Shown: piece after piece, positions 36,850 to 53,148 of the stretch
Position numbering within the stretch: the stretch's first letter is position 1
Layout: each line of letters starts with the position of its first letter
DNA from: Microtetraspora sp. NBRC 16547
GTDB lineage: Bacteria > Actinomycetota > Actinomycetes > Streptosporangiales > Streptosporangiaceae
Assembly (NCBI RefSeq): GCF_030268965.1
Contig: NZ_BSSE01000030.1
Span: 1 to 64,000, forward strand
DNA: 64,000 bases
Direction of reading: 5' to 3'
The notes under the pieces: model-generated
Database searches by the model: none
Seen by the model: only the letters and a program-made list of their open reading frames with translations
Told to the model about the DNA's origin: nothing
Program-made: the position numbers and the translations under genes

Positions 36850-36881
36850 GTTCTTCGCCGAACAGATGTTCGGCGAAGAAC
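36850..36881. promoter_or_regulatory. LexA (SOS) box inside a 32-bp palindrome upstream of ruvC
   Basis: The centre, CGAACAGATGTTCG at 36859-36872, fits the Gram-positive/actinobacterial LexA box CGAACRNRYGTTCG exactly. The flanks extend it to 14-bp perfect arms around AGAT. It ends 21 bp before the ruvC start, as expected for SOS control of ruvCAB. Because it follows the acetyltransferase stop it might also act as a hairpin terminator. Confidence 0.8.
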
Positions 36882-36902: not shown

Positions 36903-37487
36903 GTGCGATTGCCCGAGCTGAGGGTGATGGGAGTCGATCCGGGGCTGACCCGGTGCGGCCTCGGCGCGGTCGAGGGCCGGCCCGGCGCGGCGCTGCGCAT
37001 GGTGGCCGTCGGGGTGGTGCGCACCCCCGCCGACGACGACATCGGCGCGCGCCTGGTCGCCATCGAGGCCGAGATCGAGCGCTGGCTCGACGAGATCCGG
37101 CCGGACGCGGTGGCCGTGGAGCGGGTCTTCGCCCAGCACAACGTCCGCACCGTCATGGGCACCGCGCAGGCGTCCGCGGTCGCCATCACCTGCGCCGCGC
37201 GGCGGGGCCTGCCGGTCGCGCTGCACACGCCGAGCGAGGTCAAGGCCGCCATCACCGGGAACGGTAACGCCGACAAGAAGCAGGTCGGCACCATGGTCAC
37301 CCGGGTGCTCAGGCTCGACGCCATGCCCAAGCCCGCCGACGCCGCCGACGCACTGGCCCTCGCCATCTGCCACGTCTGGCGTGGGGGCGCGCAGAACCGG
37401 TTGGCCCAGGCCCTGGCCAGAAGAGGCGCCCCGGGGGCGGCCGTCACGCTCCCGCCCGGTTACCGCCATCCCGGGGCCGGCCGATGA
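36903..37487 (+). CDS. ruvC: Crossover junction endodeoxyribonuclease RuvC
   Basis: A 194-residue RNase H-fold resolvase. The active-site acids include D in [12 protein letters not shown] (about residue 12), E in AVAVERVF and the late [12 protein letters not shown] cluster. It cleaves Holliday junctions with RuvAB. GTG at 36903 follows GGGGGAGGCGTTCC. It is the first gene of ruvCAB. Confidence 0.96.
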
Positions 37488-46077: not shown

Positions 46078-46119
46078 CGTCGTCCCCCGCCGCGAGCAAG
46101 CGCGCGGCGGGGGACGACG
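46078..46119. terminator. Bidirectional terminator between rel and DUF349 gene
   Basis: A perfect 17-bp stem, 46078-46094 with 46103-46119, around an 8-nt loop, between convergent genes. Confidence 0.85.
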
Positions 46120-47424: not shown

Positions 47425-48258
47425 TCAGCTCTTGCTGGTTATTGTCACGTCTTTGATTTCGACGGGCCGCTTGGGTGCGCCCGTGCCGTCGTTAAGGCCC
47501 CCGGGGATCACGCCCCGCTTGGCCACTCTGTCCAGGATTTCCAGCCCCTTCGTCACGGTACCGAAAGGTGTGTAGTCGGGGCTTAGCCCGGTGTCCCCGT
47601 AGACGATGAAGAACTGGCTGCCGTTGGTGCCGGGCCCGCTGTTGGCCATGGCGAGCACGCCGCGGTTGTACTTGGCGCCCGCGAGGTTCTCGTCGACGAA
47701 CCGGTAGCCGGGGCCGCCCTGGCCGTCGGTGGGGTTCTTGCCGTCGGCCTTCGCGAGCGGGTCGCCGCACTGCAGGATGGGGAAGTCGGTGCCCATCCGG
47801 TGGCACCGGGTGTCGTCGAAGTAGTCCTTCGACGCGAGGAACTTGAACGAGTTGACCGTGCAGGGCGCGTTGACCGCGTCGAGGTTCGCCACGATGTCGC
47901 CGTAGTTGGTCTTGATCGTCATGATCGCCGGCGCGGTGCTGACCTTCTCCGCCGGCATCCCGACGTTCTTGACCTGTTCCCCTGGCTTGGAGGCGACGTA
48001 GGAGCACGTCCCCGTCGACGGGTCGTACGGCTTGGGCTCCTCGGCCGCCGCGCTCGGCTTGGCCGTCGCGGTGGCGTTGTCACCGCGACCCATGAAGGCG
48101 ACCGCCCCCACGACGGCGCCCACTACGACCACCACGGCGGTGCTCGTCCCGATGACCGCGGTGCGCCGCGCCTTGCGCTGCCGCTCAAGTCTCGCCTGCG
48201 TCTGCCGCTGGTAATGGTCCCGGGCCAGCTGCTTCTGGCGGTCCTTGCCGGTGGCCAC
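47425..48258 (-). CDS. Membrane-anchored cyclophilin-type peptidyl-prolyl isomerase
   Basis: A 277-residue protein. A basic N-terminus and a single helix (about 35-56) anchor a cyclophilin domain (about 115-275) outside the membrane. Motifs include VNSFKFLASKDYFDDTRCHRMG, GGPGYRFVDENL and GSQFFIVYGDTGLSP. It is predicted to speed prolyl isomerisation of exported proteins, fitting nearby sec genes. GTG at 48258 follows GGAGGACGAA. Position matches Rv2582 (PpiB) beside rel. Confidence 0.92.
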   Translation of the reverse strand: MATGKDRQKQLARDHYQRQTQARLERQRKARRTAVIGTSTAVVVVVGAVVGAVAFMGRGDNATATAKPSAAAEEPKPYDPSTGTCSYVASKPGEQVKNVGMPAEKVSTAPAIMTIKTNYGDIVANLDAVNAPCTVNSFKFLASKDYFDDTRCHRMGTDFPILQCGDPLAKADGKNPTDGQGGPGYRFVDENLAGAKYNRGVLAMANSGPGTNGSQFFIVYGDTGLSPDYTPFGTVTKGLEILDRVAKRGVIPGGLNDGTGAPKRPVEIKDVTITSKS

Positions 48259-48415
48259 TTCGTCCTCCCGACTGTCCAAGAATGACTATTGAGGTGGGCG
48301 AATCGTATCGGCACACGGGCATTGGTTCGCAGCCCGCCGACCCGCACCGGTACCCTTCGGTTACATTCGCTCGCGCATTCCTTGATACATCTTCTGAGAC
48401 GAAGAGGCCGATTCC

Positions 48416-50376: not shown

Positions 50377-52133
50377 TCCGCAGTCACGAAGCAGGGACGC
50401 TTCGTAGGGAGCATGCAGGCCAGCGGGTGACGCTGGCGGGCTGGGTGGCCCGCCGCCGGGACCACGGCGGGGTCGTCTTCATCGACCTTCGGGACGCCTC
50501 CGGCTCCGCCCAGGTGGTGTTCCGTGAGGAGGATCACGCCCACGACCTGCGCTCGGAGTACTGCGTCAAGGTGACGGGCGAGGTCCGGGTGCGCCCGGAG
50601 GGCAACGAGAACCCCGACCTGCCGACCGGCGCCGTCGAGGTCGTCGCCTCCGAGGTGGAGGTGCTGAGCGAGGCCGCGCCGTTGCCGTTCCCGATCGAGG
50701 GCAGCAGCGGCGTGTCGGAGGAGGCGCGGCTGAAGTACCGCTACCTCGACATCCGCCGGGCCCAGGTCGCCGACGCGCTGCGGATTCGCTCGCAGGCGAC
50801 ATACCTGGCGAACGAGGTCATGAAGGAGCGCGGGTTCGTCTACGTCGAGACCCCGAACCTCACCCGCTCCACCCCCGAGGGCGCCCGTGACTTCCTGGTG
50901 CCGGTACGGCTCCAGCCGGGCAACTGGTACGCCCTGCCGCAGTCCCCGCAGCTGTTCAAGCAGCTCCTCATGGTCTCCGGCCTCGAGCGCTACTACCAGC
51001 TCGCCCGCTGCTTCCGTGACGAGGACCTGCGGGCGGACCGGCAGCCGGAGTTCACTCAGATCGACATCGAGATGTCGTTCGTCGACCAGGACGACGTCAT
51101 CGAGCTCGGTGAGGCGCTGATCGGCCGCATCTGGAAGGAGACCCTCGGCTACGAGCTGCCGACGCCGCTGCCGCGGATCAGCTACGCCGAAGCGATGTCC
51201 AGGTACGGCTCCGACAAGCCGGACCTGCGCTTCGGGGTCGAGCTGACCGACCTGACCGAGTACTTCGCCAACACCTCCTTCCGCGTCTTCCAGGCGCCGT
51301 ACGTCGGCGCGGTCGTCATGCCGGGCGGCGCCGGGCAGACCCGCAAGGAGCTGGACGCCTGGCAGGAGTGGGCCAAGTCGCGCGGCGCCCGGGGCCTGGC
51401 GTACGTGCTGGTCCAGGAGGACGGACTCGGCGGCCCGGTGGCCAAGAACCTGTCCGAGACCGAGATCGCCGGCCTGGCCAAGGCCGCCGGCGCGCAGCCC
51501 GGGGACGCGATCTTCTTCGCGGCCGGCCTGCCCCACCCCTCGCGGGAGCTGCTCGGCGCGGCCCGGCTGGAGATCGGCCGCCGCTGCGGCCTGATCGACG
51601 AGTCGCAGTGGTCGTTCCTGTGGGTCGTGGACGCCCCCATGTTCGAGCCGGTGGTCGACGAGGTCGGCCGGCAGACCGGCTGGACGGCCGTGCACCACCC
51701 GTTCACCGGCCCCAAGCCCGAGTTCGCCGACACCTTCCACGACAACCCCGGCGAGGCCCTGGCGTACGCGTACGACATGGTCTGCAACGGCATGGAGATC
51801 GGCGGCGGCTCGATCCGTATCCACCGCGCAGAGATGCAGCAGCGGGTCTTCGAGGTGCTCGGCATCTCCAAGGAGGAGGCGGAGAGCAAGTTCGGCTTCC
51901 TCCTCGAGGCGTTCAACTACGGCCCGCCGCCGCATGGCGGCATCGCCTACGGCTGGGACCGCGTCTGCATGCTCCTCGCGGGCGGCGAGTCGATCCGCGA
52001 CGTGATCGCGTTCCCGAAGACCGCCTCCGGGTTCGACCCGCTGACCGCCGCTCCCACGCCGATCACGACCGAGCAGCGCAAGGAGGCCGGGGTGGACGCC
52101 AAGCCGAAGGGCGAGGCGGCCCCGCAGGCCTGA
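50373..52133 (+). CDS. aspS: Aspartate--tRNA ligase
   Basis: A 586-residue bacterial-type synthetase. An N-terminal OB anticodon-binding domain ([21 protein letters not shown]), class II motif 2 ([21 protein letters not shown]), the bacterial GAD insertion domain (about 290-410) and motif 3 ([11 protein letters not shown]) are present. Many actinobacterial enzymes of this type are non-discriminating (Asp/Asn) and work with GatCAB; this cannot be decided here. GTG 50373 overlaps hisS. Confidence 0.96.
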
Positions 52134-52144
52134 CGTGGTCTGTT

Positions 52145-52183
52145 GCCGGTTCCGCGGTGCTCCTGAGGCGCCGCGGAACCGGC
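52145..52183. terminator. Terminator hairpin after aspS
   Basis: GCCGGTTCCGCGG pairs perfectly with CCGCGGAACCGGC around a 13-nt loop, 12 bp after the aspS stop. Confidence 0.7.
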
Positions 52184-52187
52184 GGCC

Positions 52188-52220
52188 CGGACATGACACG
52201 GACATGACCCGGACATGACA
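52188..52220. repeat. Three tandem 11-bp repeats
   Basis: CGGACATGACA, CGGACATGACC, CGGACATGACA head to tail. The last copy forms the outer edge of the large inverted repeat that follows. Confidence 0.8.
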
Positions 52221-52271
52221 TGGCCCCCGGGCCCGGCGGTTCACCGCCGGGCCCGGGGGCCATGTCATGTC
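52212..52271. terminator. Perfect 29-bp inverted repeat between convergent genes
   Basis: Bases 52212-52240 and 52243-52271 are exactly complementary with only two bases between. The core is GCCCCCGGGCCCGGCGG. It lies between the ends of aspS and the cyclophilin gene and could act as a terminator in both directions. Such length and perfection are unusual. Confidence 0.85.
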
Positions 52272-52287
52272 GCGCGTGCGCGGAGGG

Positions 52288-53148
52288 TCAGAGGATCCGG
52301 ATGGTCTTGATCTCGACCTTCGTCTTGGGGGCGTTCGAGCCGCCGTCGTCGCTGGTGATGTCGACGCCGTCCTTGGCGGTGTTGACGCCGCCCTTGGCGA
52401 TCTTGTCGACGATCTCCATGCCCTTGCGCACGATCCCGAACGGCGTGTACGCCGCGGGCAGCTGAGCGTTCTCGTCGGTGTAGGAGATGACGAACTGGCT
52501 GCCGTTGGAGTTGGAGGCGTCGCCGCCCTGTGCCATGAAGACCACGCCGCGGGCGTACTGCGGCCCGAGGTTCTCGTCGGGGAACAGGTAGCCGGGGCCG
52601 CCGGTGCCGTCGGTCGGGTTCTCGCCGTCGCCCTTGGCCTGGGGGTCGCCGCACTGGAGCAGGCCGAGGCCGTTGGTCTCGACCGTGGTGAGCCGGTGGC
52701 AGACCGTGTTGTCGAAGAACTTCTTGCTCGCCAGGTACGCGAACGAGTTGATCGTGCAGGGCGTGTCGCCGGGGGCGATGTCGACGACGATGTTGCCGAG
52801 GTTGGTCTGGATCAGCATCGTCTTGGCGTTGATCACCGCCTTCGACAGCTGCTTCGGCGGGAAGCCGACGAACTTCGCCGGGCTGCCGGTGTCGTCTTTG
52901 CGGTACTCGCAGGTGACCTTGCGCAGGTCGGTCTCCTTGACGGTGGGTGTCGGCTCAGCGAGTTCCGAGGGGATGGCGGAGGGCACGTCCGAGGGGAGGG
53001 GCGTCGGTGCCCCGTCCGCGGAGTCCTTCGCCTCGCTGCACGCCGCGAGACTCCCTACGAGCGCGAGCACACTGAGGCCGACGCCGATGGTGCGCCTGGC
53101 CTTGCTCCTGGGCCGAGCCGGGTGCTGCTGTCGGTCCGTGTCGGTCAC
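52288..53148 (-). CDS. Lipoprotein cyclophilin-type peptidyl-prolyl isomerase
   Basis: A 286-residue exported protein. A signal peptide ends in the lipobox VGSLAAC (Cys about 37), followed by an Asp/Ser/Pro-rich linker and a cyclophilin domain (about 120-285) with INSFAYLASKKFFDNTVCHRL, GGPGYLFPDENL and GSQFVISYTDENAQLP. It is a paralogue of the cyclophilin at 47425, anchored by lipid instead of a helix. GTG start with GGGAAGG upstream. Confidence 0.92.
   Translation of the reverse strand: MTDTDRQQHPARPRSKARRTIGVGLSVLALVGSLAACSEAKDSADGAPTPLPSDVPSAIPSELAEPTPTVKETDLRKVTCEYRKDDTGSPAKFVGFPPKQLSKAVINAKTMLIQTNLGNIVVDIAPGDTPCTINSFAYLASKKFFDNTVCHRLTTVETNGLGLLQCGDPQAKGDGENPTDGTGGPGYLFPDENLGPQYARGVVFMAQGGDASNSNGSQFVISYTDENAQLPAAYTPFGIVRKGMEIVDKIAKGGVNTAKDGVDITSDDGGSNAPKTKVEIKTIRIL

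Follow-up and report, generated by a model that had tools for sequence, protein, structure and literature searches.

In the soil bacterium Microtetraspora, a perfect 29-bp inverted repeat of Microtetraspora sp. NBRC 16547, lying between the convergent ends of an aspS-like gene and a cyclophilin gene, is probably best understood as a shared two-way terminator hairpin which was lengthened by a single inter-strand template switch. The putative role as a two-way terminator, or as a hairpin at RNA 3' ends, is an ordinary one, and judged from the sequence it is very likely. The palindrome is no new kind of element but probably the outcome of known processes, both the terminator role and template switching having been described already; its distinctive feature would be its recent origin, which the comparison of related sequences supports.

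Anatomy of the locus

The window, by which we mean the whole stretch of 64,000 nucleotides that was analysed, carries at this locus the features listed below.

50397-52133, + strand: aspS-like class II tRNA synthetase gene, running towards the cyclophilin gene; stop codon TGA at 52131-52133, start predicted
52145-52183, no strand assigned: first hairpin, on the aspS side; arms 52145-52160 and 52168-52183, 16 nt each and 94% complementary
52188-52220, no strand assigned: three 11-bp tandem units, absent in four congeners
52212-52271, no strand assigned: perfect 29-bp palindrome, proposed two-way terminator; arms 52212-52240 and 52243-52271, spacer TC at 52241-52242
52240-52271, no strand assigned: the 32 nt attributed to one putative template switch, comprising the last stem base, the spacer and the right arm
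52288-53148, - strand: cyclophilin-type peptidyl-prolyl isomerase gene, an open reading frame with a Pfam Pro_isomerase domain (E 5.5e-27)

The product of the first gene contains the Pfam domains tRNA-synt_2 (E 1.4e-119), tRNA_anti-codon and GAD, and it is from these domains that the putative aspartyl name derives. The gap between the two genes measures 154 bp and accommodates, in this order, the first hairpin, with a perfect part of 13 bp and a loop of 13 nt, the three tandem units and the perfect inverted repeat, the two 29-nt arms of which are complementary throughout. The units read CGGACATGACA (52188-52198), CGGACATGACC (52199-52209) and again CGGACATGACA (52210-52220), the third sharing bases with the outer left arm of the palindrome. 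The preliminary description of the structure, namely a 29-bp perfect stem with a two-base spacer, three 11-bp repeats and an additional 13-bp hairpin, was borne out. A second cyclophilin-like gene, taken from the list of open reading frames, lies at 47425-48279 (- strand) and together with that at 52288-53148 (- strand), the only one of the two submitted to the Pfam domain test, brackets three + strand genes, the last of which is aspS.

Rarity and copy number

No perfect hairpin of greater length was found in the part of the host genome surveyed. In a survey allowing loops up to 20 nt and covering the window and 100 stretches (2.064 Mb, 26% of the 7.8-Mb genome), the longest perfect arms measured 29 bp (52212-52271), followed by 24, 20, 20 and 19 bp, while 448 kb generated by a first-order Markov model, with loops up to 15, gave no perfect arm longer than 13 bp. 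Within the genus the palindrome is less exceptional, M. glauca having an unbroken 24-pair stem at the orthologous place. A tandem pair of 11-mers without mismatch was found only at the 52188 array. The runner-up in length in the 2.06 Mb, at C1:76541-76594 (L144), has perfect arms of 24 bp and a loop of 6 nt (TCCTTATAAGTACGCTTCTAAGAA...); it is rich in A+T, which is odd in so G+C-rich a genome.

A search of the whole 7.8-Mb genome for further copies, suggested in the preliminary description, established that the palindrome is single-copy: the query 52150-52300 matched itself, itself reversed and a 30-base stretch on contig C7, the last being judged by eye to belong to local repeats of no relation and therefore disregarded, and no second copy was detected. 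The length of the inverted repeat is the one property that would recommend a mobile or dispersed palindromic element inserted at the locus. Such elements are recognised by several genomic copies, whereas only the one was found here, and each of the four congeners has the orthologous hairpin core at the corresponding position. This possibility, which we regard as extremely improbable, was rejected because of the single copy and the orthologous core.

Folding and the proposed two-way terminator

The fold predicted for 52134-52290 has a z of about -11.4 on either strand, with 0 of 200 shuffles equally good, which argues that the palindrome region did not arise by chance. The RNA of the palindrome forms a stem of 28 pairs with a 4-nt loop at -69.0 kcal/mol on each strand, and so presents the G+C-rich RNA hairpin of a canonical Rho-independent (L-shaped) terminator; the first hairpin (52141-52187) folds at -41.8 kcal/mol on the + strand and -33.0 kcal/mol on the - strand. 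In a comparison with Rfam, none of the 13 matches with E no greater than 1 reached the gathering score; microRNA models account for many of them. As such sub-threshold matches are what any long hairpin may give, the palindrome is not treated as a known structured RNA.

The single hairpin stands between convergent gene ends and can be folded from both strands, such that one element would serve as terminator or RNA 3'-end hairpin both for aspS (+) and for the cyclophilin gene (-), the RNAs of both strands folding into the same 28-pair stem with its 4-nt loop, and with no U-tract following. We infer termination activity from this position, from the hairpins that relatives hold in the same gap and from the bias of long hairpins towards convergent gaps. 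A hairpin is present in all 14 convergent aspS-cyclophilin gaps examined in the Streptosporangiaceae, comprising the window and 13 loci of relatives. These were drawn from 67 loci with a related isomerase, of which 29 were scanned; the 13 that were counted have a convergent aspS within 400 bp, and the other 16 were left uncounted, seven having aspS or a chance motif at a distance of at least 1 kb and nine having neither. The weakest of the 14 (L066) has a 9-bp perfect arm and a 14-nt loop, and one of the gaps (L115) contains a run of N. By counts that rest on a home-made gene caller (83% coding), the density of arms of at least 16 bp is 23.7 per 100 kb for convergent gaps, compared with 7.5 for co-directional gaps, 1.9 for divergent gaps and 0.1 for coding sequence; the number of gaps with arms of at least 12 bp is 46 of 267 for the convergent class, 64 of 832 for the co-directional and 17 of 294 for the divergent. 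The earlier suggestion of a function beyond termination finds no support here, since the position, the hairpins of the relatives and the convergent-gap bias all fit a predicted two-way terminator.

Some further features of such gaps were noted by the way. A hairpin at 46078-46119, together with its orthologues (L129-L140), occupies another convergent gap; in M. glauca it has a longer outer stem with 20-bp perfect arms, and in M. niveoalba it is accompanied by a run of repeats of the TATACGCGTCCTGG kind, much like the 52188 array. By eye, the orthologous gap of Planotetraspora (L070, 339 bp from aspS to the isomerase gene) contains several scattered GCATGATCACG-like words.

Direct repeats spaced by 11 bp fall on one face of the helix and the palindrome is perfect, so that the 11-bp units and the palindrome could also be read as a regulatory protein-binding array or operator, with no terminator involved. 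The site, nevertheless, lies between convergent gene ends and not upstream of a gene, a simple scan found no promoter-like sites, and the array is missing from the four congeners, all of which makes this reading very improbable.

The feature of a canonical Rho-independent (L-shaped) terminator that is missing is the U-tract: a consensus scan returned no terminator-like sites, and the bases following the stem are GCGCGTGCGC on the + strand and CGGGTCATGT on the - strand. Rho-dependent termination is predominant in mycobacteria according to the available text of PMC12288462, and this predominance, together with the missing U-tract, suggests that the palindrome may act together with Rho or may only protect 3' ends. 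The predominance of Rho and a title cited in the same source, stating that the mycobacterial polymerase needs a U-tract, count against a terminator role for a hairpin devoid of one. On the other hand, the I-shaped terminators described there for mycobacteria consist, as does the palindrome, of a G+C-rich hairpin with no following U-run. These are situated within 50 bp of the stop codon, whereas the large stem starts 79 bp past the aspS stop; the first hairpin, starting 12 bp past it, falls within that distance. The comparison also crosses bacterial families, the I-shaped class being mycobacterial and the palindrome, in another family, being a terminator by prediction from sequence (PMC12288462). 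A parallel in layout is provided by the two-way intrinsic terminators of Bacillus cereus, which, in the portion of PMC5381666 available, evolve by compensatory change and are under stronger constraint. There too a hairpin between convergent genes can be formed by both strands and shows compensatory change among relatives, as does the palindrome, which differs in having no U-tract, a longer stem and a high G+C content and in being a predicted terminator (PMC5381666).

States in the relatives and recency

The comparison with close relatives that had been proposed in the preliminary description reveals an orthologous hairpin in the other four Microtetraspora, shorter or less perfect in each. M. 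fusca, M. malaysiensis and M. niveoalba share a common core, GGCCCCCGGGCCCGG, with perfect arms of 18-19 bp and imperfect outer flanks, and between these core arms all three read TGGTGAA on the aspS strand. In M. glauca the core has paired differences and forms a 24-pair stem with one G-T pair (-58.0 and -52.8 kcal/mol on its two strands), the perfect run being 8 bp inside a longer imperfect stem. The 11-bp array was found in none of the four congeners compared.

Against this background three differences distinguish the window. Firstly, the spacer is TC in the window and GA in all four congeners; although it consists of two bases only, its inverted orientation is the better match by 2 edits in each of three comparisons. 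Secondly, the inner stem is 3 bp longer than in the closest relatives. Thirdly, one arm has been altered to match the other: the outer left arm (ACATGAC) agrees with M. fusca and M. malaysiensis on that side, whereas the outer right arm is unlike theirs, being exactly complementary to the left arm of the window itself, the corresponding stems of the relatives being imperfect.

In the tree the window, M. fusca and M. malaysiensis form one group (support 100/99) with no resolution of the order among the three, and the end branch of the window is 0.027. M. fusca and M. malaysiensis differ by 5 edits over 95 nt; a divergence of this size predicts about 2.6 edits in the 32-nt stretch, compared with about 10 seen (rough Poisson P 4e-4). 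The absence of the array from four congeners, the shorter or imperfect stems there and the short branch leading to the window thus sustain the earlier proposal of a recent origin. The accompanying premise, that such palindromes are normally unstable, finds no support for this one, as the arms are 29 bp long and inverted repeats become a threat, in the part of PMC3855049 available, at about 100 bp or more per repeat.

A perfect palindrome in one genome might also be an artefact of assembly or library, that is, an inverted chimera or a mis-joined palindrome. The genome assembly is in 151 contigs, and library preparation also generates inverted copies; but the locus is interior to an 87-kb contig, the palindrome spans only 60 bp and its orthologous core is present in the congeners, so that we consider an artefact quite unlikely.

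Proposed origin by template switching

The replication event that we infer would have started from an ancestral hairpin which was shorter and imperfectly flanked, like that of the sister species. Once synthesis of the new strand along the left arm had reached ...CCCGGCGG, that strand would have jumped to the complementary strand by means of a CGG microhomology and then copied back through the spacer and the left arm. A single switch of this kind would at once invert the spacer, add 3 bp to the inner stem and convert the mismatched right outer arm so that it complements the left one. Tandem duplication of the 11-bp unit would have been a separate event, probably due to slippage.

One switch can write the observed sequence in a reconstruction that takes the left arm from the window itself, as far as CCCGGCGG, and adds the spacer and right side of a congener. 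The switch reproduces 32 of 32 nt (52240-52271) from a 3-nt microhomology if the spacer is that of M. fusca, M. malaysiensis or M. niveoalba, and only 3 of the 32 if it is that of M. glauca. The left arm that was given differs by 5 edits from the three nearest congeners and by 8 from M. glauca. For the spacer, right arm and flank, the edits needed if there was no switch number 14 from M. fusca, 14 from M. malaysiensis, 18 from M. niveoalba and 14 from M. glauca, compared with 4 edits and one event if there was. Random mutation with matched numbers of edits, in a neutral model from which selection for pairing was excluded, yielded a perfect arm of at least 18 bp in 1, 2, 2 and 0 of 20,000 runs and never one of 22 bp.

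Selection for pairing is the substance of the main competing account, by which the same two-way terminator acquired its perfect stem stepwise, through point mutations and small indels favoured for pairing, the change in the spacer being coincidental. In favour of this account, the hairpins of the relatives differ in sequence and yet keep their pairing, the two-way terminators of Bacillus cereus show compensatory evolution and stronger constraint (available text of PMC5381666), and M. glauca likewise carries a 24-pair stem. Pairing selection leaves unexplained, however, the change from GA to TC in all four comparisons; for a branch of this length, about 10 edits within 32 nt is a high number, and the 3-nt step in the inner stem also speaks against it. 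A stepwise origin is therefore possible but rather doubtful.

Is an inverted spacer simply what any comparison of palindromes would produce? Among 57 orthologous hairpin places, 34 have a hairpin on both sides, and 27 of these 34 favour the direct spacer and 7 the inverted one, which argues that spacer inversion is no by-product of the comparison. Three of the seven are the aspS-cyclophilin locus itself, with a margin of 2 edits in each case; a margin of 2 edits is also seen in two poor matches, and the remaining two favour inversion by a single edit, so that neither recurrence nor commonness of the inversion is established by these pairs.

Template switching of this type has been described in other systems. 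In yeast inverted repeats, inter-strand template switching homogenises the arms and inverts the spacer, and in the available part of PMC8604942 one of 10 spacer inversions was accompanied by arm conversion. Arm conversion and spacer inversion thus occur together, as they do at the palindrome, which differs in being bacterial and intergenic and in having in addition a 3-bp extension of the inner stem (PMC8604942). Template switching likewise makes and maintains the hairpins of RNA genes, where, as is proposed for the palindrome, one reverse-complement copy explains both stem extension and loop inversion (PMC8794818); that work, in the text available, concerns rRNA and microRNA, whereas the palindrome lies at the 3' ends of bacterial protein genes and is interpreted from five species. 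No stronger support for template switching is expected there than the combination of compensatory change with loop inversion, which is extremely rare in RNA genes; in rRNA it is not enriched relative to simulation, which counts against reading the palindrome as the product of a switch (PMC8794818). In the portion of the literature on template switching and terminators that was covered, we found no title on template switching in terminators, from which no claim of unpublished status is made.

Template switching at the palindrome does not account for the whole gap, as the 11-bp array and the first hairpin require other events, slippage and perhaps a further inverted duplication. By eye, the first hairpin has a left arm (GCCGGTTCCGCGG) similar to what follows the aspS stop in M. 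fusca (GCCGCTTCCGCGC), a likeness which suggests that the right arm of this hairpin may be an inverted copy too.

Implications and a further palindrome

The inverted spacer, the longer inner stem and the converted outer arm are three linked changes that can be traced to one known mutation process and that the tree polarises. If such cases recur, the perfection of terminator stems should not be ascribed to selection alone. A wider and tentative extension, which we think unlikely to hold as a general rule, is that in high-G+C actinobacteria template switching, and not base-by-base selection, builds and mends the long perfect terminator palindromes of convergent gaps; were it true, the perfection of a stem would record the last switch and the orientation of the spacer would record the kind of switch.

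Elsewhere in the window, at 36850-36881, a palindrome of 15 bp (GTTCTTCGCCGAACAGATGTTCGGCGAAGAAC) precedes by about 20 bp an open reading frame at 36903, ruvC-like by eye. The centre of the palindrome, which we take to resemble the actinobacterial LexA/SOS box, recurs in three congeners with minor differences.
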